Shown here: positions 1 through 63,000 of the stretch, piece after piece | How positions within the stretch are numbered: position 1 is the stretch's first letter | Layout of the letters: each line of letters starts with the position of its first letter | DNA from: Umbilicaria muhlenbergii | Lineage: Eukaryota; Ascomycota; Lecanoromycetes; Umbilicariales; Umbilicariaceae | Direction of reading: 5' to 3' | NCBI GenBank assembly: GCA_000611775.1 | Contig: KK106984.1 | Coordinates: 1,456,364 to 1,520,363, forward strand | Length of the DNA stretch: 64,000 nt | Notes under the pieces: model-generated | What the model saw: only the letters and a program-made list of their open reading frames with translations | Databases searched by the model: none | Told to the model about the DNA's origin: nothing | Made by a program: the position numbers and the translations under genes

Positions 1-1324
1 AGTATGTTGATCTAACAGTCAGAGCATATTTGAGGTATTGTTGATTATAAAAGAACTTTAAAAGATCATACAACCTGCCTTGAAGAATTACAGCAATTTT
101 TACATCAGTGGAATGTTATTGTGAGTGAGGTGAAGGGGAAAATGGAAATTTTGTTGAAAAATTGTACAGATACTCAAGAGACTGAAGTTAATAATTCTGA
201 TGACTTGAGTAATATCAAGAATGAAAGCCTGTAGCTTGTGTAACCTGCAGCTTACAGAGTCCCCTGATGTTATGTTAACTTTTAAGCATATAAAGATATT
301 TAAAAGTCTGCAGTGATGACTGTTCAATCCTTCTTTCCTCACATATAGTGCGTCACTGAAAATGACTCCACCATGAACAGAGTTTGAGCACATTATCATT
401 GTATATTGCGCATCAAGAAAAGTAAGTCATGAAGCATGCACTGAAGTCCTTCACTTAAAAAGCACGGGGCAGACAACTATCACTCAGAGCTTGATCATGA
501 TGTGATGCAAGCTTGACAAGAGCAAAGAGATTTCTGAATTATAAAACAGCACAATCAGGTGAAACACTTCTGCAGTGAATAATTAACTCATGCAGCAAAG
601 CAAGTATGTGAAAGATTTTCAAGCTGTAATGAGTGTTGAAGCTGAAGAGCTCACAATACTTGAAAAAGTAAATACATCTTTGAGCCCTCTGAAGTGTTGT
701 TGCCATCAACTGACTTGTTAACAGAGGAAGAGTATGACAACCTTGAAGATTATCATTACTTCATTTCTCATTCACGCCGTTTCAAACTGAACCTTTCATG
801 ACAGGGGAAGAATTTCAGACAGACATTGTTATGAGATGTTTAAAATCATGAAGAGAGATAAGAGTTTGTGAAGAAGAAAGTTAAATAATTATTTAATCAT
901 AAAATCAGTGAAGTGAAGGTTATCTTATTTGAGTGAAGGTTTTTAAATAATAAAGGCTCACCTTCTTCATTTAATAACTTCAATGATGTAAGCAGAATAT
1001 TTATTTGTTTCTAAGAATAACTTACTACTGAGTGACAGTGACAGAGAGCATCATCATGAGGTAAAGTAGTCAAGGTCAGCAAGTGATTTATTAGCAGGAA
1101 ATTAAGTCTTCATTACATAACTTTACACTGCTGATGCTGTCACACTGTTGCCTTTTGTCAGCCTTTCCCTGCAGGCGCTTTGAACAGTGTCACACAGTTT
1201 AACATCATGCTTGAACTCTGATATGAAGCTGAACACTGAAAGTCTTGACCCTATGATACTTTACCTTAAATATGTAGTTTCAAATTACTGTAACTTTTTC
1301 ATAGTGTGACTGTGTATAAATTTA
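1..1324. other. decayed AT-rich DNA, nothing recognised
   Basis: No frame longer than about 100 codons is open and I recognise no protein family on either strand. Fragments on the + strand at about 60-240 and 700-800 read like acidic, once-coding sequence, but they carry stops and match nothing I know. The base composition is the same decayed type as the rest of the block. Confidence 0.5.
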
Positions 1325-1831
1325 CAGCAAATGTCTACATTGACTCTCATAAAGTTATTTCTTACTAGAATAACCCTCAAAACTTTAAAATTATCAGAAT
1401 GACCCTCATGACCCTCATGATTCTCATGATGTCATGACGTCATGACCCTCACTACCTCATCATTACTCTCATAGCTTTATTAATGTCATCTCTCTGTGTG
1501 ACTGTCTTCACTCTCTCTATAAGCAGCTGATTCTTCAAGTTTTCATCAGTGATAACATTCACAGGTGATCATCATATTATTTATCTTATGAAGAAGATCT
1601 GCAGCTGCAGAAACTTTCAAGAGCATCTTCTCTCTTATTAACATGTCTTAACAGTGTGTAAAGAGCATGATTTAAATTCAGAAGATTATGTCAGCCTGAT
1701 ATATAACATGAAATCATATTGAGTCACTTACACTGTGATTTGAGAACTTGTCTCTCTTGAAGAATTGCTCTCTTTATCTTCATGAGAGGCTGTGCAATGC
1801 TTGACTTCTTCTTAATAAAGACTTAATGTAG

Positions 1832-2264
1832 TTCATGAGGCAACACTGCACTATAGACAACACTGCATCCCCCTCCCCCCTCTCAACTATTGAAATTACC
1901 CATTTCTCCACCATAATTGCATGCATTCAACAGAGAAAGAAGTGCATATTCTGAAGATCATTAAGGTCTATAATAATGCTCTTACAAATTCAGAAAGCAG
2001 CTAGAGACACAGGCTAAAAAGTTAAAACAGCTGCAGGATAAAGAGGAGAAGCAGACTGTGAAAACTGCAGTTATCACAGCAAAAGCAGTCTTGAAGATGC
2101 TGAACTGCATAAATTCTACAGCTCTGTTATAAATTACAATGTAGAGCTTCAAAGTTTCTTATTTAGATCAAAATTTACAGCTCAATTGATGAAATTCTGA
2201 TTTTTTTCCCCTTGAGGGGGGGGGGGGGGTGTGATGTTGCCTATAGTGTGATGTTGCTTCATGA
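1832..2264. mobile_element. MITE nested in TIR element copy 1
   Basis: Terminal inverted repeats of about 45 bp: 1,832-1,880 begins TTCATGAGGCAACACTGCAC and ends in C-rich sequence, and 2,216-2,264 is its reverse complement with a run of 14 G. The related copy at 33,182-35,154 lacks the segment: sequence flanking about 1,826 and 2,392 is contiguous there near 34,640. It therefore inserted after the two host copies separated. It keeps CC and GG runs that are almost absent around it, suggesting a later arrival. No coding capacity is seen. Confidence 0.75.
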
Positions 2265-2702
2265 ATTATGTTACTGAATTCTCTGATCAAGTAATATCAG
2301 AATTAATGTTTACAATTTATAAACAATTAATTTAAGTAGGGTTTTGTTCAGAATGCTGATGTCAAGGTATTAATATTATTTAGCGTGTGTGCAAGCAGCA
2401 CAAGAACAAGAAGGTCACTCACTGCTCTTAATGTGAATTAATCACTTATAATCAACAGTGCTGTCAAAAGGCTTCTGCCTTAAGCTCTGTCTTCATGAGC
2501 TTCAGCAGCTCAAGCTCCTTCAGCAGTGAAAACAGTGAAGATGAAGATGACAGTGAGGATGAAAGCAGCAGCAGAGAAAAGATCAACAGAGAGAAAAGCA
2601 GCAGAAAGAAAGACAGCAGAGAGAAAGACAGTAATTCTTTCACATCAGAGCATCTTGCTTAAAAATCACTGATCATCCTCTTAAGTCCTGCTTCTAGAGT
2701 CA

Positions 2703-3158
2703 GTGCTTCAATGCCTCAAGATGATGTCTCAAGGCACTGTCTTAAAGCATTTAAGTCCTGACCCTAGAAGTAAGCTGAAGGTGAAGAAGCAGCAGGAGGC
2801 AGAGAGAGTGAAGAAGATAAAAAGAGTAAAGAAGATAAAGTCATTAAAACAGCAATTAAGAGCAACAACTGCAGAAGCAGAGAGAGCAGAGAAGACAAAA
2901 GTGAAAAAGATAAAAGTGAAGAAGATAAAAGTGAAGAAGATGAAGAAGATGAAGAAGGCAGAGGAGAAGCAAAAGAAGAGAAAAAATGTTAATCACTTAA
3001 CATCTTTTCACTTCTTCTCCTCCTCCTCTGAGAATGAGGATGAGATAAAGAGGAACAGACTGTTCACTCAGTTAACTTTGAAAAAAGACTCAAATGAGGC
3101 TCACCTTCTTCATATGATTGAGAAGATGAAAGGTCACCCTTTCATCTGTCAGAAATGA
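2703..3158 (+). CDS. Lys/Glu-rich ORF of TIR element, copy 1 (unknown function)
   Basis: Open frame of 151 codons starting MLQCLKMMSQGT. Residues about 20-100 are a highly charged Lys/Glu/Arg tract of near-repeats such as VKKIK, likely helical or coiled coil. A Ser/Glu linker (SSSSENEDE) follows, then a tail with RLFTQLTLK and EAHLLHMIEKMKGHP. The homologous frame is also open in the inverted copy at 33,874-34,314, with the same start, charged block and tail. A Ser/Asp/Glu-rich stretch lies upstream in both copies, so the original protein was probably longer. I do not recognise the family. Low-complexity composition could keep the frame open by chance, so selection is not proven. Confidence 0.45.
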   Translation: MLQCLKMMSQGTVLKHLSPDPRSKLKVKKQQEAERVKKIKRVKKIKSLKQQLRATTAEAERAEKTKVKKIKVKKIKVKKMKKMKKAEEKQKKRKNVNHLTSFHFFSSSSENEDEIKRNRLFTQLTLKKDSNEAHLLHMIEKMKGHPFICQK

Positions 3159-3849
3159 CTCACAGCATTAATCAATCATCAGATGAAAAAGACAGTTGAT
3201 TTTTAAACAGCTGCTGTTGACATGACCTGCTGATGAAGAACTCATGCTGACATTGAAAGAAAACTTCTTTCAACAGAACAATATCATCAGGTCATGAGAT
3301 GAACTCATGATTCAACTGAATCACCTCTGTCAGCAAAGTGAGATTCATTTAAGAACATCTTCATTTACAGCATCTTTTGTTATTCCTGCTCTTCTTCACT
3401 TTCATCTTCTTCACATTCTTCACCTCCTTCACCTCTGCCTGCGCTTTCACAGTTAAGCAGCATCACAATTTAATCTGATCATCTGACAAGGCCCTCAGTG
3501 AGGGCGGTGACAGCAGCAGTGACAGCAGCAGAGGCAGAGAAGATAAAGAAGACAGAGTTAATGAAGCAGTAATTAAAAGCAGCAGCTGCAGAGGCAGAGA
3601 GGATGAAGAATGCAGAATTAATGAAACAGCAGTTAAAGATTGAATCTACATCATTGTTAGTAAAAAGTTCATGTAGGAAGCAGGCACGTTGAGGGAGTGA
3701 AACAATGAGTAAATTACACTTGAAACATAAAAAGAAATGAGGGTCATATGAGAGTCATGAGGGTCAGAAGATCATTCTGATAATTTTAAAATTTTAAGAA
3801 TTATTCTAATAAGAAATAACTTTATGAGAGTCAACATAAACATTTGCTG

Positions 3850-5266
3850 ATTAATTTAATATAAAGACACTTGAGTATGTCCTTGAACATGATGAGAGTG
3901 AGTGATGAAGTTGTCATTTTCACATTTGTGAAGAAACAAGTTGAGAAAATCATCCTGAGGTTCATTTAATTCATCATCTGTAAATCTTCAGTGCATTAAT
4001 TCTTCAACACTGTCATCTTCTTCTTCATGATAAAGTAACTGAACCTCATCATTTCACTGTTTTAGTAAAGTTGTGCTGAGGTATTTTATAAAGAACTTCA
4101 TTTCTTTTAAGCTTATCCTCATCTTCTGAAAAAGCTTTAAAATTACCTCAAGTGAGCTGCATGCTTCATTAAGTCCTGCATGTAAACTGCAATATCATTT
4201 AATCATGCCTGCCTTCATATGATAGGGCGGGGCCTATGTAACACACTGACTCATTAATGTCACAATGTGTTTCAGTGTCTTGTGTAGCACATGGTATTTT
4301 GATAGAATTCAAGCTGAAATCTCTTTTTACATCATGAGTGAACTTTCTACTGCAATGATTAGTGAGATCATGTGACTGCACATGACTGCACATGACTACT
4401 TAATAAGCATAAAATACGCCTCATGTATGTTTTGCCTCAGTCATTCAGACCCCTCTGCCTCAGCTAGAACTAGCTGAACCTTAATGTCCTTTGAGATTAA
4501 CTACAAACACTGACTGTGTGCATTTTCCAGGGAGGGTCTGAGGGCGTAATTTTAAAAACAGGTCAGAAAATGCTTCATTTAATTATACACACACTCATTA
4601 TGACTGTATGTAGAAAACGCTTCATGTCAAAATCTCAAGTCATGAAGACACAACAGTCACTTAAAATCAATCACAATTTTGTTATTCAATGTTACAACTG
4701 TAATAAATTATATAATGACTGCTTTATTTAATGCTGTAGTCAGTATTTCAAAAAAGTGTCTTGTTATTAAACAGTTTCTTAAGTTTTCACAGAGTGTACT
4801 TTTCAGTTCAAAACAGTGACCTTATACCTTAAAAACTAGATGGTCACACTCTCTCAAAATTGCTTCATCATTTAAACTCATTGATAGCAGCCTCTGAACT
4901 GAGTTATATAAAAATCCCTAGCACTGAATCTTCTGTGTGATGAAAATGTAAAGATTTTGCATAACTTCTGCATAGTTTTGTGCATAACATGCACAAAACT
5001 TGTGACACGCAGAAAACAGCAGAGAAAACAGCAGCAAAAACAGCAAAAAAGACAGCAGAAAAGGCAGCAGAGCAGTGACAAGAAATAAGTGTAAAAAGAT
5101 AAGTTCTCAACATGTGAGAAGTTTATTTATGTTTTTAATTATTAAATAGAAAACAAGTATTTCTCAGATGTACACAGCAGAAATATCTGAGCATTGCATT
5201 AAACTTAAATTACATGTCTGGAAGTGATTTCAACCTGTAATTATTAATAACATGCTCAGACCCTAT
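3850..5266. other. unrecognised decayed sequence
   Basis: Short open frames at 4,199-4,393 (-) and 4,516-4,731 (+) have no recognisable domain. At 5,000-5,070 an AG-rich low-complexity patch (repeated ACAGCAGAAAA) gives spurious Cys/Phe-rich frames on the minus strand. Minus-strand sequence at 3,890-4,150 reads like a once-coding acidic segment but is not identifiable. Confidence 0.4.
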
Positions 5267-5350
5267 GAAGAAAAGCTATCTGATCAGGTTAACTTCATGA
5301 TTTTGTCATGATGATGCATGTTAACAACTCTTTTCAGAATGAGTCTGAGT
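5267..5350 (+). repeat. direct repeat copy A (partner at 8,966)
   Basis: About 85 bp containing ATCTGATCAGGTTAACTTCA and a TGATTTTGTCATGATGATGC block match 8,966-9,050 with only a few differences. The copies are 3.7 kb apart and flank the minisatellite and the TPR-like relic. Confidence 0.65.
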
Positions 5351-5612
5351 TAACTGAGGTAATGTATGTTTGAAGAACATTCACTGCTCACTTACACCTG
5401 TCAATGATGATGGTAGATGATGATTTCATAACAGTTCAGAAAAGTTTATTTAATCATTTATGTCAGCACTGTGAACACTGCCCTGACTTCAGTGAGCAAG
5501 TGCAAGACTTATCAGATGAGCATGTGATTATCATTTTCAGAAGATATTCATTTAGTAAATCTTATTCTAAGAAATGAAAGCTTCTGCATGAATCAAAGCC
5601 TCAAAAATCACT

Positions 5613-5822
5613 GCAGGCTGAATCACAGCAGGCTGAATCACAGCAGGCTGAATCACAGCAGGCTGAATCACAGCAGGTTGAATCACAGCAGACTGAATCA
5701 CAGCAGGCTGAATCACAGCAGACTGAATCACAGCAGATTGAATCACAGCAGACTGAATCACAACAGACTGAATCACAGCAGCTTGAATCACAGCAGACTG
5801 AATCACAGCAGGCTGAATCACA
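5613..5822. repeat. 15-bp minisatellite
   Basis: About 14 tandem copies of a 15-bp unit, consensus AATCACAGCAGGCTG, with variants CAGACTG, CAGATTG and CAGCTTG. Because 15 is a multiple of three and no stop occurs in two frames, it is open on both strands: RLNHS repeats on + and PAVIQ repeats on -. Neither is likely a real protein. It lies upstream of the decayed coding-like stretch that begins at about 5,900. Confidence 0.95.
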
Positions 5823-5899
5823 GCTCTCATCTCACTCATCAGACACATCTCAACATAAAGAGCTTAAAAGAGCAGGTATAAAAGAATCAGAGAAGAGAA

Positions 5900-7540
5900 T
5901 ATAATCAAAACAGTGAAAAGATGAGGCTGTAGACTCATTTCTATGAAATGCTCTCAAGGTCACTGAGTGATGTATAAGACAGGATCAGCTGAAATTGCAT
6001 ATTATAAAGCAGTATGAAGAGGTCATCTGAGCTTTTACTGATCACATCAATGTCAGAGTCATGAGAGAATCATATTAAGCAGATGAACACATCATCAAGA
6101 GAGAATCATATCAAAGAGATGAATATTCAGACAATGAACTTGTCACTTTAATAACTAAATTCACCTTGCTCACAAGAGATTTCATAAGAAACACTAAACT
6201 TCAGAAATCATTTATCACATTTTAATCTTTAATCTTGCTGTCATACTGTGAAGTTCTTAGGAAAAGGGGCGTTTCTTACAAGATTGTTGATCAGATAATT
6301 AAACATATCACTTTCTGAGACTGTGATTGAAAAAGACTACTAGACGGCGCCTCATGAATAAATAGCATCATTGCTGATTTAGTCAGTCATGATTGAATAA
6401 TCTTTCACGTCATAGAATTATTCTTCATTGATGTGTTCTTCAAGCTTTACTCACTTGTTAAGTTGAACTCACATCATTTTCAGATGCACTGTCTCTTACT
6501 TACCTTGTCAGTATTCACAATGAGGAAAACTCACAATCAATTCTTAAACATCTCAAAGCAGATGAGTTTGTGAAACATAATTACAATGATTATTTAAGAC
6601 CTGAGTACATCATTCTCAGCCTTATTTCATCTCTGCTTGATGCATACAACACAACAACTTAAAAAATCTCATATGAATTCTGATCTGATAACAAAGGCAG
6701 TGCTGATGAGAAAGCATTAAAATTGATGAAATATTCATCACCCTTGATTACAACTCAGATTGCGTGCCAAAGTCAGTCAAGAGCATATACAAAGTTCATG
6801 CTGTTTTTAAGAGCACCTCAGTTGATCTTGATTTTAATGTTGTAAAATTAAAGTCTTTTTAAAGTAATGATCTGTCTCTCACACATCATAATTAAAAGCA
6901 GGATTAATTTTTAAATCTAGCATTAAAATCATGTTTCTCAGTTCAGGAGAGCTTTCATAACATGATTAAAAATTCTGTGATGAAGTTTTCAAATGATCAC
7001 AGATACTTCTGTAATGATTAAACTTTTCTTTTAAATGAAAAAGTCCTCACCTGTGCATTGAGTCTGATTATAATCTTTAAAAAGAATATCAACCTCTTCA
7101 CTCTTCCTCTCTCAGCTTTCTTATATTCTTTGAGTTGTTCTGAAATTCAAGAGGACATATTATTTCATGAACTTTTATCACAGAAACAATGAAATCATCA
7201 TGACAATGAGTGTGAAGTTTCCCTGCTTGACACTGACTTTGATGAGGAGGTCATTCATCTTTTCTTAAGTCAAGTCAAGCTGAAGCAAGTCATCAAGTCT
7301 TGCATCAAGCTTGATGTGATTGTTCAGGGTGTATTGATGAATGATTCATCAGCATACTCACTTAATGATGAGTCACAGCATCAAATATCTCAATTCATGA
7401 ATCATAAGAAGCTGAGCCTGTTTAAATTAATATTCACAGCTCACATCTGTCCTCAGGATCAGATCTTAAAATCTTTATAAACTTGATTTCATGATTTCAT
7501 AGCTTCTTTGTTACATTATTAACAATAATCTCAGATTTCA
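5900..7540 (+). pseudogene. decayed coding-like stretch, unrecognised
   Basis: Plus-strand frames show long stop-poor pieces, for example at about 6,490-6,660 and 7,150-7,430 (TDFDEEVIHLFLSQVKLKQV is readable). They look like remains of a large protein upstream of the TPR-like segment and could be its N-terminal part. I see no P-loop or other diagnostic motif and cannot name a family. Confidence 0.3.
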
Positions 7541-8860
7541 GGATCTTGAGAAACTCTTGTTGCCTCATCTTCAACATACTTGACAATATGTTCAAGGAGA
7601 GTCTTGTCTCAGTCTGTCAGCTCATGCCTGTGATAGCTTGATAAAAGCATCTTTAACAGTGTGAAGGTTTGTTGCAACATCTCACATGAATGATGTAATT
7701 TCCACCTTGATCAAGATTTGAGATAATGAATTACCAGATCACCTGCAGATGATGATTACATATCAGCAAAGTACTTCATTATAATTACAGGATGATCATG
7801 ATCAATCTGATGTTATGATACAAGATATCCTCAAGGGAATTATCATTGATGTGATAAATATCAGATCACATTGTTCACATGAACATCTGCTCCTTTCTCA
7901 GACAGAAAATGCAATATTGTGCACAGAGTTCAACAAAGTGTCATCATATTTAGCAACTTGAGAGGTGAAGAATTTGAAACCTTTCAGGTTGAAGCTTCAA
8001 GTGATTCAGATGAAGAATACTGTACTCAGCAGGATATCATGATATCAAGGTGACTTTAATCATGCATGCCTCTGTCTTGAGACATGTTTCAAGATGATTC
8101 CTCATGATGCAAGTCATTATCATGTCATGCATCATCTGACTGACATCTACTGTGAACTAAGAATGTCAAATGAAGCTGAAGATTTAATGCTTAATGAAGT
8201 CAAGCAGTTAAGAGTCTGAGGTAAGCAACATTTAAAATCATTCTGATGTCTGACTCTCCTGTTGGCGGAGGCTTATATTGAGCAAAGAAAGTTAAGTGCA
8301 GCTAGAACTGTACTTCAAGAACTTCTCAACATATTAAATGAGATAGCTGATCATGATGTAACTGATCAAGTAGGTCATGTCTGTTTGATGATCAGCTTAA
8401 CATGCATAAGTTGATATGAATCTCAATGAGATGAAGCCTGTTAAAGTTTAAAGAGCGCACTTGATCTCATTGAAAGATACAAAACCTTTTCAGAAAAGAG
8501 CTTTTATATAAAAGTCATCAACATTTTCCTTTTCATTGTTCTTTCTGAGCTTCATCAGTGTTCAGGGGCTGAGAAGACTTTTATGTTAACAAATGATATC
8601 CTCTGTGAGCAGGTGCCTCAGCATTTCATGTTAAAAATAAGTTCATATTTTTTAAATTGTCTGAAGTCTGTCTCTCAGTGACCTTTAATCAGTTGAATTT
8701 ATAACTTTTGTCTTCAAATGATGTTGCAAGCTTATTTAAATATTATAGTGTCAACACATGCTTCTGAAGCGTCAATCAAACATCATGACTTATTGCAGCT
8801 CACCATTAATAAATTCTCATCAATCAATGTAGATTTATTAATGTTCAGTCATTCAAAAAA
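7540..8860 (+). pseudogene. TPR-repeat protein relic
   Basis: Plus-strand translation across several frames gives helical repeats resembling tetratricopeptide repeats: EAYIEQRKLSAARTVLQELL at about 8,268-8,327, then DEA..SLKSALDLIERY and a SELHQCSGAEK stretch. The clearest upstream piece reads HYHVMHHLTDIYCELRMSNE (about 8,117-8,176), again TPR-like. Such arrays are common at the C-terminus of fungal STAND/NLR-type proteins, but no NB-ARC or NACHT motif is visible here, so only the TPR call is supported. Many TGA stops interrupt it. It sits directly upstream of the folylpolyglutamate synthase relic on the same strand. Confidence 0.45.
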
Positions 8861-8965
8861 CAGTTCCTAGGACACCCTCAGATTTTGTTATAAATTCAAT
8901 GATGAGGTTCATCATCAAATGAAAGAGGCAAGAGCGCTTGAGGAATCTGAGGTTGAAGATGAAGA

Positions 8966-9050
8966 AAAGCAATCTGATCAGGTTTAACTTCATGATTTTG
9001 TCATGATGATGCATGCTAATGAGCTTTTCAGAATTAAGTCTGAGGCAACA
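8966..9050 (+). repeat. direct repeat copy B (partner at 5,267)
   Basis: About 85 bp matching 5,267-5,350, lying between the TPR-like relic and the folylpolyglutamate synthase relic. Either a small dispersed repeat or the scar of a local duplication. Confidence 0.65.
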
Positions 9051-9109
9051 GGCACATCCTCCTCAACTCATAATTATCAATGAAATGAAGAGAAGTTATG
9101 AGGTCAGAA

Positions 9110-10690
9110 AGATTATAAAGTAACTTTCCTTAATATGCTGATTCAATACAGGAAGCCATATGATGCCTTAACAGCAGAAAAACAATCATGAAGCTTAACT
9201 TGAATGATATGCACAGCTCAGATGACATGATGAAATGACTGAAAATTCTTGATCACTCAGTACAGTTTTGCAGTCTTCAGTGATAATCATGTCATTAATC
9301 AGAATGATAAATTGAAGATTTAAATGATCTGAATGTCATACATGTAGCAGGAACAAAGGGAAAGAGCAGTATTTATGCATTCACTGCATCTTTTCTTCAA
9401 ATGCACAGGAACATCACTGCTTACCTTTAAAAATTTGAGCTGTACACATCACCACATATGATAAACATACATGAGAGGATTTGCATCAATGATGAGCTAA
9501 TATCAAGAGAGCTTTTCACAACATGTCTTTTTGAAATCTGAGATAAGCTGTCAGATCAGGTCACACTCAGTTTAAATATTTCTTGATATCTTCAGCTCCT
9601 AGCTCTTCTCTTCTTTCATGTGTTTATTGAGGAAAAGGTGAACATGATGATTTATGAAACTCACACTGACAGAGAATTTAATGCAACAAATATTATCACA
9701 ACATCAATTGTTACAGCTGTTACATTAATTGTAATGAATCATGTTAAGCTCCTTCATTCAACAATCAAAGAAATTGCCTGACACAAGGCAGGAATCTTCA
9801 AATCAGGAAGTTTAATCTTTTCAACTCTTCAGAAACAGATGATCACTGCAGTTCTTCAACAGTGAGCAGCAGAGAAAGAAGTTATGCTGAAATTTGTTGA
9901 TGTTGACTCTACACTTTCAACAAATGTGACAGCTTTAAAGCTCATAATTTAAAGAGTAAATTGCTCTTTAACTCTTGCAGTGATTTATGCATAACTCTCT
10001 GTGAAGGCACCTGAAGTGCACAGTCACATGAGAGAGATTTTTACTTATGACCTGAAGCAGTTCTCCTGGTCAGGATGTTATCAGCAAATCAATGATCAGA
10101 ATTGTCAATGATTTCTGAATGAAGCACATAATGAAATAAGTGTGCAACATACTGTGCAGTGGTTTGCTGAGACTGCCTCAGAGAATCAAAAGTAGGTTAT
10201 AATGTTTAAATCATTACATGAAATCATATGTTAATAATCTTAGGAACATTGTACCTCTCACATGCATTCTTATATTTAATCATTTCTCAGAATGAGATGA
10301 TGCAGCTCTCCTGCATTGTATCTTAAAATCCCTACAAGATAACAAACTTCAAATGCAATATGTCATTTTGAGCACATATACTGAAAGATGAGATGACAGA
10401 ATCAGGATTGATATTTGCTCCTGTAGTAATATAAGGAAGAAACAAAGTTAACTCATTCTGCAGATAAAAACTTGCAAAACTGCTTCTCATCAGAGGTTCA
10501 AGAGCATTATACTGAGGTTTAAAAGAACTTTGATCCTAAGATCATAGTATCATGTGAATGAACAATCAAGAAAGCTTTAAATCAGGTTAAAGAAATCAAT
10601 AATCAAAACAACAGCATGTAAACTTTGATAACAGAAAGTCTGCACTTGATCAGTGATGCACTTTATCTCTTAAAGTCTGCATAAACTTGA
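9110..10690 (+). pseudogene. folylpolyglutamate synthase pseudogene (near full length)
   Basis: Folylpolyglutamate synthase adds glutamates to folates, retaining them in cytosol and mitochondria. Family landmarks appear in order: the ATP-binding loop LNVIHVAGTKGKSS at about 9,330-9,370 (family GTKGKGS), YTSPHMINIHERICIND (family YTSPHL..RERIRIN), a YETH....EFNATNII segment (family YE.H.GGE.DATN), DHVKLL-type remains near 9,745, HKAGIFKSG at about 9,782, the LNEAHNEIS/QW region near 10,115 (family DGAHN), a SERDGAALLHC-like segment near 10,290, and the C-terminal SLHLISDALYLL at about 10,640-10,676 (family GSLHL.G..L.LL). Numerous TGA and some TAA stops and typical Gly-to-Ser/Glu, Arg-to-His and Pro-to-Ser/Leu changes show it is dead. 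Introns may exist but cannot be placed. It is probably a decayed duplicate of a working gene elsewhere. Confidence 0.9.
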
Positions 10691-19730: not shown

Positions 19731-19734
19731 AGAG

Positions 19735-25530: not shown

Positions 25531-25531
25531 A

Positions 25532-52084: not shown

Positions 52085-52260
52085 CTCTGCATTGGCAGGA
52101 AAAGACCTACTACTCAACTGAGATGATGAGTGAGAAGTCAAGGCAATTGTGAATAATCATGTTCATGACAGCAGGCTTCAATACCTCATCAAATGAAAGT
52201 TGACAGATCAGGTGTGAGATGACACATGAAAGTCAACACACTTCATCTGCAATGCAAAGG
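52085..52260 (+). mobile_element. chromodomain region of the Gypsy element
   Basis: A segment with VNNHVHDSRLQYLIK and DDTWKSTHF fits the C-terminal chromodomain of chromoviruses, which directs integration to heterochromatin. Broken. Confidence 0.75.
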
Positions 52261-52319
52261 CAAAAATGCAGAAATTTCATGCTGACAACTCTGATAAACT
52301 GAAATTCAGGTGAGCTGTA

Positions 52320-52536
52320 TGATGTGATTTTTCAAAGTTGATTGAGAAGCTGTCACAAAAGTCATGAGCCTTAAGATGTGACTCTTCAAGGTTGATTGAG
52401 AAGCTGTTGCAAAAGTCATGAGTCTTAAGATGTGACCCTTCAAGGTTAATTGAGAAGCTGTTGCAAAAGTCATGAGCCTTAAGATGTGACTCTTCAAGGT
52501 TGATTGAGAAGCTGTCACAAAAGCCATGAGTCTTAA
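52320..52536. repeat. 54-bp tandem repeat, four copies, inside the Gypsy element
   Basis: TTAAGATGTGAC recurs at 52,371, 52,425 and 52,479 and, degenerate, at 52,533, giving an exact 54-bp period. The unit includes GGTTGATTGAGAAGCTGT. The length divisible by three leaves an antisense frame open (18-residue repeats), which is incidental. Confidence 0.93.
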
Positions 52537-52559
52537 GAACTGAAAACTTTGTCAGCTTT

Positions 52560-54281
52560 GTTAACCTGATCTTTTATGATGAAGCCTGTGCTCTACAACA
52601 AGTATGACAGAGGCTATGATGCTATGATGTTATGATGAGATCTCTAATAGAATTACTGCATGAACTACATTATCATCAACATGTCACATTGCAGAGAACC
52701 AGAGAACACTCAAGTGCAGAAACATTTCATTTCAAATCTGAAGATCAAAATGAACCTGAGATCAACACCTTGCACTCAACCCCTCATCAATGTCACATTA
52801 AGTCACTTTCATTTATTTACTTGTCTTCTGCTGTTTTAAACTCTTCTTCATTATCTGATAAAGCCTCTGACCTCATCTCCTCAATGCAGTGCTGCTCACA
52901 GAGTTTAATATACTCTTGATGATGATGAGATTGATGAGCATTAAGGATGCAGAGAGCGTGAGCAGTGCTTTTCAGCAAGACAGCAAGAGCTTGAATGAGC
53001 TTCTCAGAACTACTGAATTAACATTAATCACCTCATTATGAATGTCATGAGACTCATGTTGAGGAGCAGCTGCAGGGGGTGTGAAGGATGCTGATAATGA
53101 TTAATAAGAGATGACAGTGTGAGGATCTGATGATCAGTCATTAAATGCTATGACTAGTTAACAATGCAAAAGTATGACATAAAGTACGACAAAAGTGTGA
53201 CATAAAGTACAACACTTTGTCATACTAAACAAAACAAAAGAGGATTGAGAAAGGCAGACTTACAGTGTGCTGTCACTCCTCTGATCATCATAGACACGTG
53301 CTGAGACAACAACATCAGAGCTCTCAGAGTCAAGAGCAGTGATGATCAGAGGCTCTGTCATGCATTACTCATGAGGATTGTGAAGAGATATTCAACATGT
53401 GCAGGCTCCCCTGTTCAACACAAAGCAGTGATCAACTCCAGCCCTTATACAAGGGCCACAGTGAGCAGTAACTGACAACATGTGACTGAGGTTCTCTCAA
53501 ATCACACGCTCATGATGATGAGCCTGCTGCACGTGAGCCGGCAGTGAGGTATCATCATGACATCACACAGAGCAGGAATCACTGTCAGAGATGTCACTCA
53601 GAGGTAAACACTTGACTCTCTTCAGGCACTGAACAGTCAGTTTTATCACTCTGTTTCCCTGTCTCTTTCTGAAGGTGTTGATCATCACAGTTTCATTCAC
53701 TGACTCTGACTCAGAGCCCTCCTCATCACACTGAGCTCAGAGATCAACAGGCTTCCCTGACAGAGGTGAGTCTTCACTGTTGTTCACAGCCGTGAGTTTG
53801 AGAGTTCAATTATTGATTGCTTATATATCATGTTAGCATTCATATGATGTATGACAGGAAGTATGACATCACAAGAATGTTGAGCTGTAAGCTGCAAGCT
53901 TCATGATGCTCCCTTCATGAGGTGAACACCTCTGCAATGAGGATGACGTCATGAAGTCATCAGGTCACTCAATGAGCTGTGAAAAAGTCATGAGATGTAT
54001 GACAACATGTCATAAGACAAATGACTAGACAAATGATGAAGAATAAGCACAAAGGGAAGGGTGTTTTGAACCTATGATAAACATGATCTTGATGTTTATG
54101 TTATGAAGAAGAACTTACTGCCAGGCGTGATATCATCATAATTAAGTGAGGGCACATGATCAGCCTTACTTTAGTGCAGTCTCATGTGATCACCCTACAA
54201 CCTCAACTGTTATGACATCATAATGAGGTTTATGAGCATTCAGTTGGCCCCGGGGACGGCGTCATGAGAAGAGGAATGCTG
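52560..54281. other. long 3' spacer of the Gypsy element
   Basis: About 1.7 kb between the chromodomain region and the 3' LTR with no recognised domain. It includes a frame at 52,632-52,919 and TATGACATAAAGTAC-type repeats at 53,165-53,225. It is unusually long for the family and may carry an extra frame or captured sequence. Confidence 0.6.
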
Positions 54282-54585
54282 TGTCAGGGTCATCATATAA
54301 TAGTATGACAGTATGACAAGTACAACACTATAGTACAACACTATAGTACAACACTATAGTACAACACTATAGTACAACATTATATAAACATGATGACTCA
54401 GCGTCTAGCACCTTGACATCAAGTAAAACTCTTCACAAGGAGGTTCAGAAACCTGCTTCCTCAGTGATCAGTTTTGCCACTGAATAGAAGATGTATAATC
54501 ACTGCATTGACCCTATCATGACTTTTGCCTATGACACCCCGTTCAAACATCAGTATGATGACCATCATACACTCAGCCCCTTATA
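54282..54585 (+). repeat. 3' LTR of the Gypsy element
   Basis: 304 bp, longer than the 5' LTR mainly because the 13-bp GTACAACACTATA unit is present about five times rather than three. Confidence 0.92.
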
Positions 54586-54865
54586 GTTGAATGAGTCAAA
54601 TGATCATGCTACAAAGATGACAGAACTGAAGGAGCTGGCTGAAGAAAAAGACATTCACTTAAATCAGATAATACAAGCAGCTGAGATGAACAAGCAGTTA
54701 TTACAGCAACAAGTGCAAATCCTAACAGATATGATAAAATACTTTAAAAACACAATGATCAAGTCTGTGAATGAGTTCATAAACAGACTCAAGCTTGACC
54801 TGAATCTTTCTACTGAGAGCAACTTAAGTGATGAGTTAATCTTGAATTCTTGTAACTCTACTTAG
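54586..54865 (+). pseudogene. coiled-coil gene, 3' part (split by retroelement)
   Basis: About 92 codons, open to a TAG at 54,863: KMTELKELAEEKDIHLNQII, then MNKQLLQQQVQILTDMIKYF, helical with heptads. It continues the frame that ends at 46,220, so the retroelement insertion interrupted this gene. No stop occurs within this segment. C-terminal end of an unidentified coiled-coil protein. Confidence 0.7.
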
Positions 54866-57230
54866 AAAGCATTAATCACACAAAATCATAAATTAATGCT
54901 GTAAAGTGCATGTGCAGTGAATGATTTTGTGCTTTATCATGAAGCATTCTCTCAAGTGACTGTTTGATCAAGCTTTTATTAGTGACTGCCTGAGACTCTG
55001 TGACTCAAGAGACCTGAGAAATTAATCTTCATGAGTGCTACGCACTCACACTCAAAGTAAACCCTGCGGGCTTGAGTTCCTCATGAATGCTTTATATGAG
55101 TGTCAAGCTTACAAGGTGACAATGACCTTGAGTACTCATAATTCTTATCACTCTTTAGCCCTCAGAGCAGTAATAACCTCAAGCATCCTCAGCTTTGATG
55201 AGCTCACATTCATGTTCCTTGAGGCTATCTCAAGAAGTGAGGCAGTTAAATGTCTTCTCAATGTTTCACTTGCAGTGCCTCCCCCTGATCTTCACATTTG
55301 TTACGCCTCATTTGCAAATATGAGTGATTGATCATCAAGAACACAGCTAATCTTACACAGATTATGACATGAAAATAAACTGATGAGAGAGTTTTGTTGA
55401 ATATTGCAAAGTATTTATTAAATAAGATGAGAAGTTGTATAAGCTAAAAGCTAACCTTGTTGAAATGACAATCTAAATCAGTTGCAGGATAGACAATAAT
55501 TGAAGTTGAGATGATTAAAATTGAGATTCTCTCTCAGCATGATGTCATGTTGCAGCTGCTTCATGCATGATGAAATGTGATCACAAATGCAGGAAAGCTA
55601 CCTTAGAAGAAAGTAATGTGATGCATTCAATAATCATCTTATTCTAGAATATTCAGCACCTTCAGCACTGTCTCTTGAGTACAATAACAGTGTATGAGAT
55701 CCAGCTGTCCTCAGGAAAGATCTCAGTGTATTTGCAACTCAACATATCCCCTGTGACTTTCAAATTGTTTGTGAGAAGCTCATCATGACAGTTATTCAAG
55801 AGCTTGAGTTTTCTGACATTAAGCACATCTACAGTCAGTTTTGTGACTTGTCTCAAGAAGATCAAGGCGGATACTTAATGCTTCATGCAGCGCCAAAAAT
55901 GATCAATTTCATAATATCAAGTGTGAACAAAGTCTTACTGTGACCTGTAAGAGACTTGGTGGCAAAAGCAGTGTCAATATTCAGGATCAACACTTTCAAA
56001 TTGAAGACTTTCACTGAGAACAGAATCAGTGAAGTGTTTATTATTATATTTAGATTCAATATTCTTGCACACCTCAACATCAATCAAGATTGAAAAAGCA
56101 ATATCAGTTCCCTGACAGTGCAAGTAACTGAGGAATGTGAAAGTTTATCACAAGATCATTATACTATACATTGTGTTGTGCTCTGATAAGTGTCAGAGAC
56201 AGCTTTCTATAAACAGCTATGATTTTCAACAAATTGAAAAGTTTTCAAGAACAGATGACAGCAAATAAATGATTGACTCAGAGATATCCTCTCTATTGAG
56301 TGTGTAAGGCTCTTGAGGTGAATCTTTACCTTAAAGAAGATGATCATAATGACACAAGATGTTTTTGAAGCGACATTCTTTACTTCAAACAATAGTTGAA
56401 TGGTGAGACAATGCTTTAAGTTCAGAGCTTACCCTGCTATTAGAAGAGAGGCGCCGTGCTGACACATGCAAGTTGTATGATGTTTTCAGTAAAGATTAAA
56501 ATTATGTTTGTCATCTTCTGTGACTGTTATCATTCAGCTTAACTCAATGAACAGACTTCTGAGGTATGATCAGCTTTGATTGACTTAACTGCAGCATTAC
56601 CTTAGGCTTGAATCTCAGTTCAGGTTGCTGTATTTGAAGCGTGATGTGAGGTTTCTTAACCTTGATGAGGATGTTTTCTGATGTGACAGAATTCTGATTA
56701 ATTAAATCTGCCAGGTGAGGGTCCTTTTTCATGAAGAGGCAAGCATCACTTTAAGTTACTGTGTGTGAGTGTATGCTTTCACTGTCGTTGTTGTGGCTGA
56801 TGCTTTTTGAGGAGAAGCATGATGAAGATTGAAAATGCAGGTACAGGGAGAACAGGGCATCCTCATCTTGCAATGATGATGTGAATTAATCAGATGTAGT
56901 TCCTGGCAAGTGCAGCTCTGTCTGTTGCAAATTTTCACTCATACTCATGTCATTTATCAGGCATAACTCATCAACATCTGAAGGTGACATCACTCTGCTA
57001 CAAGTCAATTCTGGTAGATCCTGCAGATTCTCATGATCAGTCATATCACAGAAGAAGACCTCTGTCAGTTTATATGAAAATTCATGAGAAGGATTTTCAT
57101 TCAACAATTGATGTTGAGTTTGCTCATTGCCTCAGTCAATCTTTAAGAGATCTTTTTTCTGCTTCAGCAGCTGTGTTTTTTGTTCATCTTCACTCTGCCT
57201 CTTCCTCTTCTGACTTTTAATGCTAGGAAT
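54866..57230. other. coding-like but unrecognised stretches
   Basis: The plus frame at 55,035-55,331 (98 codons; LNVSLAVPPPDLHICYASFA) and plus pieces at 55,650-56,180 (SDIKHIYSQFCDLSQEDQGG) look like exons of a dead gene. The minus pieces at 57,107-56,544 (SPSDVDELCLINDMSMSENL; KPHITLQIQQPELRFKPKVM) look like a second gene on the opposite strand. Neither is recognised. Confidence 0.35.
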
Positions 57231-60200
57231 TCAGTTGATGAAAGGTTCTGAGTTGTGCTCTTTTCACTGATGTTTGTTCATGTGTAGACTTTTCTGCAAG
57301 CCATGCACATCATTAAGATGATATAAAAACAATGTTTCATCATTGAGCTGCTGAGTGCATAATGGGTGAGGACAGTTCAATGGTCAATAAGATTTTTTCA
57401 GATGTCATTGAAGATGATTCTGAAACTGAGCTTCTCTGATTCAGGAGACTCATCTCACTGTTGTGAACATGACAGGCTGACTGTCACCTAGACAGAAGAG
57501 ACAACTTAGACAGAAGGAACAAAAGGCTGAATGAACAAGTGTGTTGCAGTAGATAATCAATCTGCATCACTTAAAGGTGATTGACTTAATGTGCATTTGA
57601 CAGTGCTCATCTCATTCCTCTTGAACAAATCAACTGAAGCAAGTTAAGCAGTATTTCAATTCCACTTGTGATCACTCAAGGGTACATGTCAGCTCTTTGT
57701 GATGACAACTGTGAATATGTGTACTCTGTTGAGGTTTACATATACTGCAGCTGTTAAATTAATATGAATTCAGGAGACATCATGATTATACTTTCTCATC
57801 TTCACATCACAACCCTTCACTGAGCAGACGTCATTGATGAGTATCTCTCTCAGTCAGTATAAGGTTGTGCAGTCTTAAGATGCAAGAGAACACAGGTTCT
57901 TGATAATTTGTCTTCATTCTTCCTCAGATATGATTTTATCTGAAATCATCATCTGTGTGAGATGACCACGTTCTGACATCATCAGTGACAGGATTTCCAG
58001 GAGGTTCATTTTCACATCATTGTCAAGTCACTTCTTCCTGCAGATCATGACTTTTCAGTCTCTCTGCATCTGAACTTAATCAGTTTGAAATTGAAGTAAG
58101 CTCTTTCTTATGATGCTGTCATGATAGCTCTGAGCTTTGTTTCTGACCGCTTGAATTTCAGAATGAGTGGCATTTTCATCTTTAAGATGATGAATTGATT
58201 CTTGAACTCAACAAGCTGTGAATCCTGCCTGATGACAGCCTCTTTTTCAGCTGAAATCTTGCTTGAAAGGCCCTTTTCACGGAACTTGGCAAAAGATTAA
58301 AAATAGTCAACATGATCATGTTGAGCTGATTCACTTAAAAAGGCGGATCTCCTGCAAATGAAAGAGGTATTCACCACATAGCTTTGATCATATACATGAG
58401 TGTCAGTCTGCGTTATGTGCTGAGATTATTCAACTTCAGAGGCTGTACCTCTCTGTATTATTTGTTTCTCAGCATGACTGAGTTCTGCACTCTGTGAGTC
58501 TTTCAAGACAACTTACTATTGATCATCTTGTCAAGGTAGTGTCATATGACATGAACTGTAACTTGATCAAAGTATCCTGAGAGCTTGAGCATAGATCTGA
58601 CAATGCGCTCAGAGATCTTCTTTGATAACAGTTCTTCTGAGACACCCTGGTTCATAATGGCATTGCATAGTATTGATAGACTCTTTATGAAGTCATGCCA
58701 TTGAAGAATAAGTTTATTTTCACTGAGAGGTATTTATAACTGTCATAAATCTTCTGCTGAATTAACAGTGAAGATAGCCTTGTCTGTGAGAGTCAAGGCT
58801 AATAGATACTGAGCATCATCATACAGCAGATTGCTGTGTTGACTGATAAACATGTCATACCTTCAAAGAAAATCATTAATTAACACATACCAAAGGTGAT
58901 GTGGATATCAATACACAGTATTCTCTGAATCATGATTGTTTTTCACTCAATGTTGATCAATCTGATATATCATCTTTCACTCATCATTAAGGATGTGTAT
59001 TAGGATAACTTCAATGTCCTGCAAGTTATCAGTGAAGCTCTCTTTGAATAATTTTACATAAATTTATCTGATATTGAAGACCTCCTTTGTTCTTGTTCTC
59101 TTTGTCAGAGAAAAAAGCACTGATCCTCACCTCAGTTCAACAGAAGACGGTGATTGTGAAGGAAACTTGCACTTTATTACATGAATGAGTGAATTGAACA
59201 TCATCAACAGTTCAGAACATGATGTTGAAACTGATCAACTCATTTTTGTTGAACAGTTGCTTCTGCTTTTTCTTATTCACAATCAGGCCTTCTTTGATCA
59301 AGATATTTCAGATTTATTAATGAAGTACTGTTTAACTATGAGGACATTATAATCAGATTCAATGTTCACTTACATGATATACCACATGTCTGTCTTCCTC
59401 ATCAAAAGGACTGCTGGTAACTCAGGTAAAGTCAGCAAAGAGTCACTTCACAAAAGTATTTACTGAATCAACAGTGATTCATTCATCATCAATTCTTCCT
59501 CAGCTAATGATGACATGAAAGTGAAGGAAGTCTTTAATAGTGACAAGGTCTGAAGGTGATAAACCTTCTCATAAACTTCAAGCTTTTGTAGAGCATGCAT
59601 TCATCATGACATTGTTGTTGAAAAGTAATTCTCCTGTGTCACTGCTTTTCTCCTCAATGGTGTCCACTCATCTACTTGATCAGGTAAGCATAGGATCTTT
59701 CACAGGATTAATTTTAAAGTTGCATTCACTTTTCATAACATCTTAAAGCTCAATTCTGATCTTTAAGGGTTTTCTTCATGTATTTCATGTTGTTCTTGAT
59801 GTTATCCTTCACCTGATGAGCTCCCTGCTTGTGATCATTGATTATGACTCTCTTAAGTAACTCATTCATGGTGACTCCTTTCCGGCTCATAACCGCATGA
59901 GGTAGAGGGAATAGGCTTGATGAGCTCATGAAGCAGGTGCATATACTGAGAGAAGAAATTATAGAAGGGAAGAGTGACAATGCTGAAGCAGACTTGAAGA
60001 GAGGTGCCTTGAGGGCAGAGATCAACTGAGATTTGAATGAAGTCAGAATTGAAGGTGCACACTCTCCCTTTGAATCCTGTCTTGAAGTCATTTCAGGGTC
60101 ATTCTGAGGTGGTACAAGGGAGCGCTTAATAAATGAGTGAGGATGCATCATCTGAATCAGAGTGCTACATCACCTGAAGTGAGGTGCTGAATCACTCTGT

Positions 60201-60581
60201 CACTCTAAAAGTGATAGCCTTGAGAGAGTGTTGACTGAGTTGCATCACAACTTCCATCATCATGAGCCGCCATTTGAGGGCTTATCCTTAATGATCAACT
60301 CTTTGTATTCAGGTCTGTCCCTTCATTTGACTACATGAGGTGCTACAAAGGAGAAAATTATGTAGGTGACATCTGCAAGTGTAAGGGTCATCCTTGACTA
60401 GCACTCAAAAGACTGTTTGAAAAGTAATGAATCTGCATTAAAGCTGAGACAGCAAGTATGTATGTTTCATCTCTTTACATGCTCTTGCTGATATGTGTAT
60501 ATGCTGTAGCTCTAGTCTCATTCTCTAATTTCATATATACACTCAAGCTTCAAATGTGTATTATATTGTCAAGATGTTTCC
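57231..60581. other. unrecognised decayed sequence
   Basis: Minus-strand helical fragments occur at about 58,200-57,850 (KMNLLEILSLMMSERGHLTQ). A plus piece at 59,150-59,330 reads HDVETDQLIFVEQLLL. A less decayed patch at 59,870-60,140 retains CpG and has a plus-strand helical reading (MKQVHILREEIIEGKSDNAE) and overlapping minus frames. No family is assigned. Confidence 0.35.
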
Positions 60582-62740
60582 TCATTTTGATTGCATCACT
60601 TGATCACATTTCTTGATGAACTCTATCTCATGCACTCTTGCTGCATGAGTCTGAAAATGATGAATATGCTGAAGTGTTGTGTGACAGGATGAATGCAAGC
60701 ATTTAAACAACTTCCCTTGAGTCAACTGTGAGTAGTGCATCTTCTCAAGATGATGACTCAACTGAGCTTTAGTGCTGAGAGCATGACCACCACAGTTTTT
60801 ATTAAGGCAGAAGAGGCATGTTTTTGAGTGACACTGCATGAGGTATAAGCCACGTATCTGATCTGAGGCAAGGCGTTTGACAGCTGAAGGATACATCATT
60901 TTGTTCAGTGATTCTTGCTCAGAACATAACTGGCTCATCAGATTAATAATCAGCAGCTGATCAGTATGCACATCATTCTTGCCTGTACATGCCTCCTTTC
61001 ATAGAATCTCTGCCAGTGCAGCATGTTCAAGAAGTGAGAGCTTGACTGAGAGAGGTACAAGATCATCTGAATCATCATGATGTGTATTAAATCAGGTCAC
61101 TCACTGTTCTTTGAGGGCTTCTTGTCACAGGTTTCACTTTTGATATTTGATCTTGTTGTCAGCATCATGATGCACTCTTCATAATGCTGCTTCATCTGAT
61201 TCCTCAAGTCATGTCTTTTTCAAGCTGTCATATTCATTCTGACACTGCTTGAGCAGGCATTGTCTTGCATCCTGTAAAGTCATCACATTAAAATGCTTTA
61301 AGATTTTGATCTCTCATTCCTCAGTCAGCTTGATTGAGGCATGTGAATCCCTCAGCAGCAGCTTATTTTCAGTCATAAGCATAAGATCCTTTTGCTGTAC
61401 TGTGTCATGATAAGTGAATTAAACATCTCACTTGACTTCAACAGTCCTGTAATGCTTCTTAAAAACATGATTTGACTTGTGACTCATAACTTGATTTCAG
61501 ATAAACTCAGGCGCAGCAGAAACTGTAATTCATCAGTATGAATCTTTAATCCTTTGCCACAGTGAGCTTCAGTACTGTTCAGCGTATTATCACAGCTGAT
61601 GCACAAAAAATAAAAAAAGACTGAGTTTGAATGACCTGAATCATGAATAAGCTGCCTTCAGGGGTCACTCATGCATGCATATAAGTAAGCCTTATCTGTG
61701 ACTTCTTCATTCTTTATACATCAGAAGAATGACTTGTTCAATACATAATTCTTTCACTGAAGGTACTTCATCTCTTTAATGAAAGTCACAGGGACATCAT
61801 AAATCTCCTCAGTTGTCTTGTAGTTATCTTTGAAGACATCATCTGCTAAAGTTATAGTGACAAGAGGTATCATAAAACACATGCTGAGATGATTATTAAA
61901 ATCTTCATGCAGCAAATGTATTGTCTTATCAAGCTGTCAGTAATTATGCATCTGCATCTCATGCATTCAGAGGGATTATGACTCACTCTTGTAACATAAA
62001 CTCCTCTTGAAATGAAAATTTATTCAGATGCTGAAGTTAAACTCTGCACCTCCTGACTTAAAGTTGCATCATTTGAGGAGCTTAATGTTCTTGTAAAGCA
62101 GAGCTTCATCAGTTCCTCTGATTTCTTCAGTGTTATTCTTCACAATTGTTCCTGATCTTTCAGATGTGAATGCAGTCAGCAGCACAAAACAAAACAGCTG
62201 AATCCTTTTTCTTTCAAGTGAGTAATGATGAACATCAGTTGATCAAAGGTACTTGACAACATATTTCAAATCATTCATTCTCATAAGAGGCTGGCGCAAT
62301 ATTCCTCTGATGAGGTTGCAGGCTCATTGCATGTCATTTTCAATAAATTAAGCTGATAATTAACACAATGAAAGGTGTTGCTAAACTTGTTATCTTACAT
62401 CTCTCATGATCTGACTTGTGACACTGTTCATCTCATGCTCAGCCTTGAACTTGTAAAGTGATTGTAGCCTGATAAATGCATTCATTGTGACATTTAACTT
62501 CATGATAGCGCTGTTGTTCAGACTTCACTTCATGAAATTGCAAAAAGCATCTGCAGTGACTGTTTTGAGAAAATTCAGTGAGTTCAAGGGTTTCAAAGGA
62601 TCCTCAATATATGCACAATACTTAAAGAACACTGAGTCAGATGAGTGTAGAGCATGAAAGATGCACAATTTACTGTTGCAATTTGCATAAAGTCCCTCCA
62701 TAAGTGATCTTGCTGAATGAAGTGAGTTTGTCAAACCCGT
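60582..62740 (-). pseudogene. DUF3435/FluG-type tyrosine recombinase (candidate Starship captain), near full length
   Basis: Minus strand, about 720 codons long before decay. From the N-terminal side: LMEGLYANCNSKLCIFHALH, SVFFKYCAYIEDPLKP and NAFIRLQSLYKFKAEHEMNS. Next come RKRIQLFCFVLLTAFTSERS and the core block EIRGTDEALLYKNIKLLK (about 62,135-62,085; family RGTD.AL.YKDI.L). The C-terminal catalytic block is SHKSNHVFKKHYRTVEVKWD (about 61,485-61,430; family GH....VFE.YY), followed by LMLMTENKLLLRDSHA and a Lys-rich helix. It ends in a C2H2-type zinc finger (CLFCLNKNC...H; FKCLHSSC...HFQTH) at 60,850-60,620. Motif order is that of DUF3435 proteins, the family of Starship captain recombinases. 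TGA stops and Gly-to-Ser, Arg-to-Cys and Pro-to-Leu changes show it is dead. The start lies about 0.1-0.3 kb inside the composition boundary. Confidence 0.8.
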
Positions 62741-63000
62741 TTCTGTGACGCTGAGTGACAGGCTTGACTTTTTGATAATGCTCTGAGCTCTTGATCAAGC
62801 GTCCTGATAGAGGTCCATGAGCCATAGTGATTTGAATTCAAAATGAGAAAAAGCAAAGGAGGGCGGGGGTGCGACAGCAGCAAGTGAACTTGAGATACAG
62901 AAGAAAGCAACAGAATGAGCACAGAATGATATCTCAATGAAGAACAATGTAACAGGTGATTCAGCAGGTGAGCAATCTTGCCAGGGGGGGGAAGCCTTCA
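62741..63000. other. composition boundary between decayed block and host-like DNA
   Basis: CpG- and GG-poor sequence gives way within about 150 bp to CpG-rich sequence; the first dense G runs and GCGGGGGTGCG appear at about 62,860, and the change is complete by 63,000. No terminal repeat can be confirmed without the other end. It is the candidate edge of a large insertion. Confidence 0.7.

Follow-up and report, generated by a model that had tools for sequence, protein, structure and literature searches.

The locus described here raises the question of what produced the long CpG-poor block of DNA that ends near its right border, and whether the recombinase gene lying at that border belongs to the block. 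The window is the whole stretch of 64,000 nucleotides that was analysed (C4:1456364–1520363; positions within it are prefixed w), in a genome of 34.8 Mb in seven contigs from a fungus that is probably a lichen former. The sequence-only reading of the window had proposed a decayed Starship with its captain at the right edge, a sharp composition boundary at about 62,850–63,000 and the other end beyond the window. The step in composition is real, with GC of 0.357 and CpG o/e of 0.10 over w0–62,850 and values of 0.534 and 0.76, respectively, over w62,850–64,000. At the level of bases, CpG (and also CpC) is reduced in the window and TpA is depleted. A second boundary, sought leftwards, is present at C4:~1,209,700. 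About 105 kb of the block (C4:1211301–1316363) is covered by 1 kb samples only, eight of nine of which have CpG o/e below 0.2, the ninth (C4:1276364) having 0.45. We note that a CpG-poor sample is also found outside the block, at C4:706364. A CpG-normal island at C4:1409364–1411363 was considered as the site of a living gene and was rejected, as its frames form a tandem array that includes a run of N.

Both borders of the block are parts of a 5S rRNA gene, in register, and the features that define the right border are as follows.

w1–63385, no strand: right-hand 63.4 kb of the element, from its edges and composition
w63386–63424, minus strand: 5′ part (nt 39–1) of the interrupted 5S rRNA gene
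w63386–63400, minus strand: 15 bp direct repeat (5S nt 39–25), with a second copy at C4:1208893–1208907

The remainder of the gene lies 311 kb leftwards, at C4:~1208.8–1208.9 kb, on the same strand and with a different terminal sequence attached; the left border of the block gives a match to RF00001 above the cut-off (38.4 bits), likewise on the same strand. Rfam returned no matches over the window at the gathering threshold, the portion of the 5S gene inside it being too short. The left edge is placed at C4:1,208,907/8, which confirms an end beyond the window, and the element between the two edges is 310,841 bp in length (C4:1208908–1519748). Joining the two flanks restores an uninterrupted 5S gene that is 97.6% identical over 127 bp to another copy (L059), and two pairs of ends on C1 joined in the same way each reach 99.2% over 129 bp, with a single gap. 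Intact 5S genes elsewhere in the genome represent paralogous unoccupied sites. The test for an empty site with a short direct repeat, made within this genome, shows that the flanks rejoin into a whole gene and that the repeat stands at both edges. The step at 62,850–63,000 does lie near the edge of the element, but we reject it as the edge itself, as the 5S junction places this at w63,385, some 0.4–0.5 kb farther out.

The first gene inside this edge is the captain, which was predicted at 60,582–62,740 and is indeed present on the minus strand, but with a somewhat different span and broken by stops.

w60564–62825, minus strand: disrupted captain gene for a DUF3435 tyrosine recombinase, lying first from the 5′ edge and transcribed inward
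w62826–63385, minus strand: 5′ terminal 560 bp ahead of the captain, for the most part not CpG-poor

Pfam identifies PF11917 in two pieces on the minus strand (w61,083–61,496 and w61,787–62,275). The extent of the gene, and the fact that it is broken, follow from two protein alignments: P0001 (322 aa) aligns without gaps to w61,529–60,564 with 233 of 322 residues identical and 12 stops, and residue 1 of P0002, from Lasallia pustulata, aligns to w62,825. The captain therefore starts 560 bp in from the edge (w63,385), and the inward-facing, edge-first arrangement that had been suggested is borne out. L. pustulata provides the sole named homologue of the captain. Comparison of P0001 with solved structures gave only five weak matches of Afadin type, with E values of 0.06 or worse. 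As for the flanking gene, its best named homologues are from Pycnora praestabilis (65%), Lambiella and Xylographa, all of which are lichen fungi, and no Lasallia name appears among the 120 homologous proteins listed, which speaks against a close tie to that genus. The CpG loss had at first suggested an onygenalean host, a reading rejected in view of these named homologues.

Our preferred reading, to which we assign a probability of roughly 0.8, is that the block is an inactivated Starship that was inserted in a 5S gene by its DUF3435 captain and was subsequently hypermutated. The assignment rests on PF11917, the position of the captain, the 5S junctions, the repeats and the cargo, within a comparison of one genome. 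The proposal of a decayed Starship at this edge is supported by the second boundary, the rejoined 5S gene and the 15 bp repeats. The captain, encoded just inside the 5′ edge, would have inserted the element at nt 25–39 of the 5S rRNA gene, probably by site-specific recombination, splitting the gene and leaving up to 15 bp of 5S at both ends. The block may have been one element at insertion that was later swollen by nested insertions, with C-to-T hypermutation, mainly at CpG, presumably killing both captain and cargo. As is typical of Starships, the element has its DUF3435 recombinase first at the 5′ end and facing inward, short direct repeats derived from the target at both ends, large size and accessory genes; as in elements of the Osiris type, the insertion lies inside the 5S rRNA coding sequence. 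Terminal inverted repeats, which are common in Starships and not universal, were not found above chance: the outer 60 bp share only 5-mers, as do 99% of shuffled sequences.

The block contains the relics of several genes. The scan of the cargo with Pfam took in 20 of 447 candidate segments, and 12 of these 20 matched no family at an E value of 0.01.

w37430–38929, minus strand: SIR2 and Ulp1/C48 protease domain relics, cargo (Pfam, 1.4e-15 and 6.7e-5)
w29451–30125, minus strand: SET-domain relic, cargo (Pfam, 2.5e-12)
w7785–8441, plus strand: weak TPR-like stretch
w18992–19312, plus strand: piece of a DUF3435 relic (Pfam)
w22670–22975, minus strand: piece of another DUF3435 relic (Pfam)
w46258–54583, plus strand: nested LTR retrotransposon with 239 bp LTRs 94% alike and pieces of reverse transcriptase and integrase
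w23890–30200, plus strand: segment of which the block contains two more partial copies (C4:1269867–1274987, 88–89%; C4:1354019–1358309, 79–83%)

The chromatin-enzyme and protease relics reported by the sequence-only reading are accordingly present, whereas no metabolic enzyme was seen among the segments scanned. The supposed TPR protein corresponds to a stretch that resembles TPR but falls below the Pfam cut-off, and what was taken for a second DUF3435 gene does match this family but consists of two pieces on opposite strands. A further DUF3435 relic lies at C4:1386868–1387781, and DUF3723 relics, from a gene described as prevalent in Starships (PMC12134995), occur at two places in the block. 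The description of the relics as single-copy holds for w54,590–60,301, which has only three other matches, all short (30–65 bp), but not for w23,890–30,200, the second copy of which (C4:1354019–1358309) is without the SET part, or for w36,141–39,048, which has a 73% relative on C2 (C2:97752–100660). Copies of the right half of the nested LTR element that reach 3.8 kb or more number at least 24 elsewhere in the genome.

Both ends of the element recur in this genome. The captain end is found with a 5S 5′ part at three other loci and the same 3′ end is found with the same 5S 3′ part at four others, from which it follows that the element belongs to a family. The captain copies have the captain in common, with likeness stopping beyond ~w60,302 and different DNA following, which is the variable cargo expected of one Starship type at several sites. 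Relatives of w62,801–63,379 are located at C1:6395556 (94%) and C1:6988019 (83%), with partial relatives at C1:2630325, C5:2534658 and C2:6437449. Further 3′ ends were noted at C1:5538237 and C5:2269793. In other copies, ends paired by orientation and nearness are ~75–110 kb apart. The core on the captain side departs from 5S in the three sister copies, so that members of the family may share a repeat of no more than ~CCCAG(T), or about 5–6 bp.

The most serious alternative, which we regard as unlikely, is that two or more Starships of the same family entered one 5S gene in tandem or nested, so that one element supplied the captain end on the right and another the 3′ end on the left, the inner ends having been lost. 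The closest kin of the two ends do differ, the 5′ end being 94% identical to C1:6395556 and the 3′ end 98–99% identical to C2:6437069 and C5:2534279, and junctions of a 5′ end with a 3′ end lacking an intervening 5S exist at C5:2534658 and C2:6437449. The inner duplications of w23,890–30,200 and the other DUF3435 relics likewise indicate that the block may be a nest of Starships and not one, and the two DUF3723 relics are compatible with this. However, no copy of either end was found in the C4 block besides the two at its borders, in genome searches that give lower bounds and BLAST of part of the block. Together with the differing kin, we count the missing inverted repeats, the departure of the sister copies from 5S at the captain side, the coverage of 105 kb by samples and the captain copy at C1:6395556, for which a genome search found no 3′ end, against our preferred reading.

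It is far less probable that the block is ordinary heterochromatin or a centromere grown by retrotransposon insertion with a captain at its border by coincidence. The length, the CpG loss, the many repeats and the CpG-poor sample at C4:706364 would suit such an origin, but it is already contradicted by the junctions, as both borders are 5S parts in register with a 15 bp repeat and the terminal sequences recur at other 5S parts. Least credible of all is a small captain-only element beside 300 kb of unrelated DNA, which would account for the loss of likeness among captain copies just past the gene but not for a 5S remainder that carries the 3′ end 311 kb away instead of adjoining the captain, for the spacing of paired ends in other copies or for the lack of a 3′ end near the captain in the stretches compared by BLAST.

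Voyager of Macrophomina phaseolina is a Starship with a 5S target, and the C4 element is likened to it by this target and not by captain kinship; Voyager is reported to have a role in a trade-off. 5S-targeting Starships have already been published, namely Osiris of the Enterprise family in Aspergillus fumigatus. As described in PMC12153272, Osiris fragments the 5S gene by insertion in its coding sequence and has a captain at the 5′ end, direct repeats of more than 6 bp and variable cargo, all of which the C4 element has in common with it, the likeness again being one of features and not of captain kinship. The same source gives mean sizes of 38–138 kb for elements regarded as active or recent, unlike the C4 element, which is ~311 kb, dead and hypermutated, and reports terminal inverted repeats in 18 of 20 A. 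fumigatus Starships. Starships riddled by C-to-T changes through RIP are described from Paecilomyces variotii, Spiromastigoides and Gaeumannomyces (PMC11623301, PMC12134995), and the C4 element is similarly full of such changes; the RIP described there has a CpA bias (PMC12134995), in contrast to the loss of CpG (and CpC) and depletion of TpA in the C4 block. No title reporting a Starship in a lichen fungus appeared among the open-access matches listed for lichen, Umbilicaria and Lecanoromycetes, most subscription papers being outside this scope.

In this probable lichen fungus, the locus reveals a Starship family that targets 5S genes, and both ends of the element are resolved although the inside is almost unreadable. 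The outer ends of the C4 element (about 0.5 and 0.8 kb) were largely spared hypermutation, and a stretch on C1 is CpG-poor in samples from the captain edge at 6395.5 kb out to 6680 kb. We advance as a doubtful suggestion that this one family forms large CpG-poor blocks, there and on C4, that such blocks may by now serve a structural role, for example as pericentromeric DNA, and that the spared ends on C4 would still be open to a captain that acts in trans. The 5S gene serves as an address label, in that pairing its parts can find and measure dead giant elements, and this makes it possible to test how many Starships hypermutated genomes contain, how old they are and what became of them.

A DUF3435 gene read inward from the right edge of the block had been proposed by the sequence-only reading, and PF11917 matches together with alignments to two homologous proteins, P0001 and P0002, bear this out; the gene, the captain (about w60,564-62,825, minus strand; w, window position), is broken. 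A profile search of the genome (34,788,950 bases, 7 contigs; the window is C4:1456364-1520363) gave 21 PF11917 matches, four within the window and two of those in the captain. The segment w61,529-60,564 aligns gaplessly with all 322 residues of P0001, with 233 identical and 12 stops, and residue 1 of P0002, from Lasallia pustulata, aligns at w62,825. This umbilicariacean fungus is the sole named species among the captain homologues. Relative to P0001, 7 of 30 arginines are kept. One CpG transition is consistent with 25 of the 89 differences (mean 3.3%, maximum 6.6% in 200 shuffles), and a single C-to-T or G-to-A change could give 76 of the 89, a manual count, the shuffle control applying to the CpG count only. 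The proposed second DUF3435 gene is present as relics, but these are two pieces on opposite strands:

w18,992-19,312, plus strand, PF11917 relic piece (profile match)
w22,670-22,975, minus strand, PF11917 relic piece (profile match)

Further DUF3435 genes were noted at C1:5138937, in CpG-normal DNA with long frames, and at C2:2642500, with an open frame of 791 aa.

A genome search with w60,500-63,660 returned at least 21 rows: the window, eight captain-copy pieces on C1 and 12 rows matching solely around w63,318-63,460. The captain copies are:

C1:6395556-6414929, minus strand, interrupted captain copy
C1:6959003-6988019, plus strand, interrupted captain copy
C1:2576193-2630625, plus strand, interrupted captain copy

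Similarity among edge-reaching copies ends at w63,429-63,430. Alignment of the edge at 14 loci revealed whole 5S rRNA genes in nine (L056-L064); the window and loci L048, L049 and L050 have the 5' part of a 5S gene only, followed by the captain end. The window retains 5S nucleotides 1-39, counting from a 5S start at w63,424. The flanking gene (L009:5285-6685, minus strand) has 709 homologues with a top identity of 93%; among the best 120 of these, the closest one with a species name comes from Pycnora praestabilis (65%), and Lasallia is absent. The host probably belongs to the fungi that form lichens.

A second composition boundary, suggested by the same reading to lie leftward of the window, is present: CpG o/e is 0.85 at C4:1206364 and 0.14 at C4:1226364, with a step at about C4:1209700. 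Where the CpG-poor block stops, C4:1208812-1208931 (minus strand) gives a weak RF00001 match (38.4 bits, cut-off 38). With 47 of 1512 candidates scored, the genome holds at least 15 RF00001 matches, of which ten reach 72-77 bits and the other five 35-42 bits. All five weak matches comprise the 5S 3' part to CCCAGT (CCCAAT in a variant at L069), then a common sequence starting ATCTC. Searching with this shared 3'-end sequence gave at least 12 rows, namely nine end copies and three short inner repeat copies. In searches that give lower bounds, the C4 block yielded a single copy of each end, the 3' end at one border and the 5' end at the other.

The sequence GACGGGATGCCCAGT is present at C4:1208893-1208907 and at w63,386-63,400, which defines the element as C4:1208908-1519748 (310,841 bp). 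When joined, the C4 flanks are 97.6% identical to the 5S gene at L059 over 127 bp. Two other flank pairs, L067/L048 and L068/L050, picked by nearness and orientation, each match a whole 5S gene at 99.2% over 129 bp with one gap when joined. Insertion across the family is at a single 5S gene position. The captain is the first gene and faces inward, and the copies differ in the DNA beyond it. The core on the captain side resembles 5S in the three sister copies but is not 5S itself (e.g. ACGAGACGCCCAGT), so the family as a whole may share a repeat no longer than CCCAG(T). The outer 60 bp of the two ends have only 5-mers in common, as in 99% of shuffles.

It is possible that the C4 block is a composite, since the closest kin of its ends differ: the 5' end is 94% identical to C1:6395556 and the 3' end 98-99% identical to copies on C2 and C5. 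The latter are the 3' parts of L054 (C5:2534658) and L055 (C2:6437449), two of the 14 loci aligned at the edge, at which a captain-type 5' end abuts a 3' end with no intervening 5S gene, representing either tandem elements or a circle-like junction.

Samples on C1 are normal in composition at 6385 and 6392 kb and again at 6740 kb; between 6405 and 6680 kb CpG o/e is ≤0.11 in five of seven and 0.32-0.40 in two. On C1 as well, therefore, a captain edge (6395.5 kb) falls at a change in composition. Another C1 element, with ends paired at 6878 and 6988 kb, is uneven, being normal at 6885 kb and CpG-poor at 6920-6975 kb.

Gene relics of chromatin enzymes and a protease had been claimed for the block, and Pfam matches identify relics of SET, SIR2 and C48 domains. 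Repeats of at least 300 bp total 30,640 bp within the 203 kb of block examined base by base. Nested and repeated features include:

w46,258-54,583, LTR retrotransposon
C4:1269867-1274987, partial copy of w23,890-30,200 (88-89%)
C4:1354019-1358309, partial copy of w23,890-30,200 (79-83%)
C1:6702593-6703446, piece of w23,890-30,200 (78%)
C4:1242702-1244233, DUF3723 relic
C4:1323901-1325432, DUF3723 relic

The right half of the retrotransposon has at least 24 other genome copies of at least 3.8 kb (32 of 462 candidates scored). The adjoining w54,590-60,301 has three other matches, all short, and w23,890-30,200 also has three short matches on C2. One repeat occurs as inverted copies about 30 kb apart (w1316-3852 and w33179-35163; 83-91% over pieces of 162-788 bp). 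The DUF3723 relics at C4:1323901-1325432 and C3:1205-2736, the latter near a contig start, have equal scores and stop numbers and are probably recent copies of each other. At C2:94567-100660 a DUF3723 relic lies within 3 kb of the sequence that is 73% identical to the SIR2/C48 region of the window, and this is perhaps part of another Starship.

Site-specific recombination driven by the captain would have inserted the element into the 5S gene; passages of PMC12153272 describe the captain as necessary and sufficient for Starship transposition. Later insertions would then have nested inside it, with hypermutation following them. Across w0-62,850 GC is 0.357, CpG o/e 0.10, TpG and CpA about 1.5, CpC and GpG about 0.5 and TpA 0.58, compared with GC 0.534 and CpG o/e 0.76 across w62,850-64,000. 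RIP as described in part of PMC12134995 is of the CpA type, whereas the C4 block shows loss of CpG and CpC with TpA depletion, a pattern seen in the window and the examined parts of C4. Each end of the element is far more mildly CpG-depleted than the interior over its outermost 0.5-0.8 kb (w62850-63385 and C4:1208908-1209700). A CpG-normal island within the block (C4:1409364-1411363) consists of a tandem array in open frames and a run of N.

The Voyager Starship targets 5S. A text search of PMC12289983 found no mention of 5S, rDNA, rRNA or Voyager, and passages of PMC10799480 mention Starships and Lecanoromycetes, never together. Excerpts of PMC11623301 describe RIP-affected Starships, one of about 700 kb. 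Sections of PMC12153272 report that, of 20 Starships, 19 have direct repeats (2-12 bp) and 18 have inverted repeats, with repeats longer than 6 bp associated with 5S targets, and describe Osiris (Enterprise family) as inserting in and fragmenting 5S rDNA. Sections of PMC12134995 list DUF3723 among genes prevalent in Starships and state that certain captain families prefer 5S. Given these accounts of 5S insertion, 5S-targeting Starships are already known, and the C4 element joins that kind.
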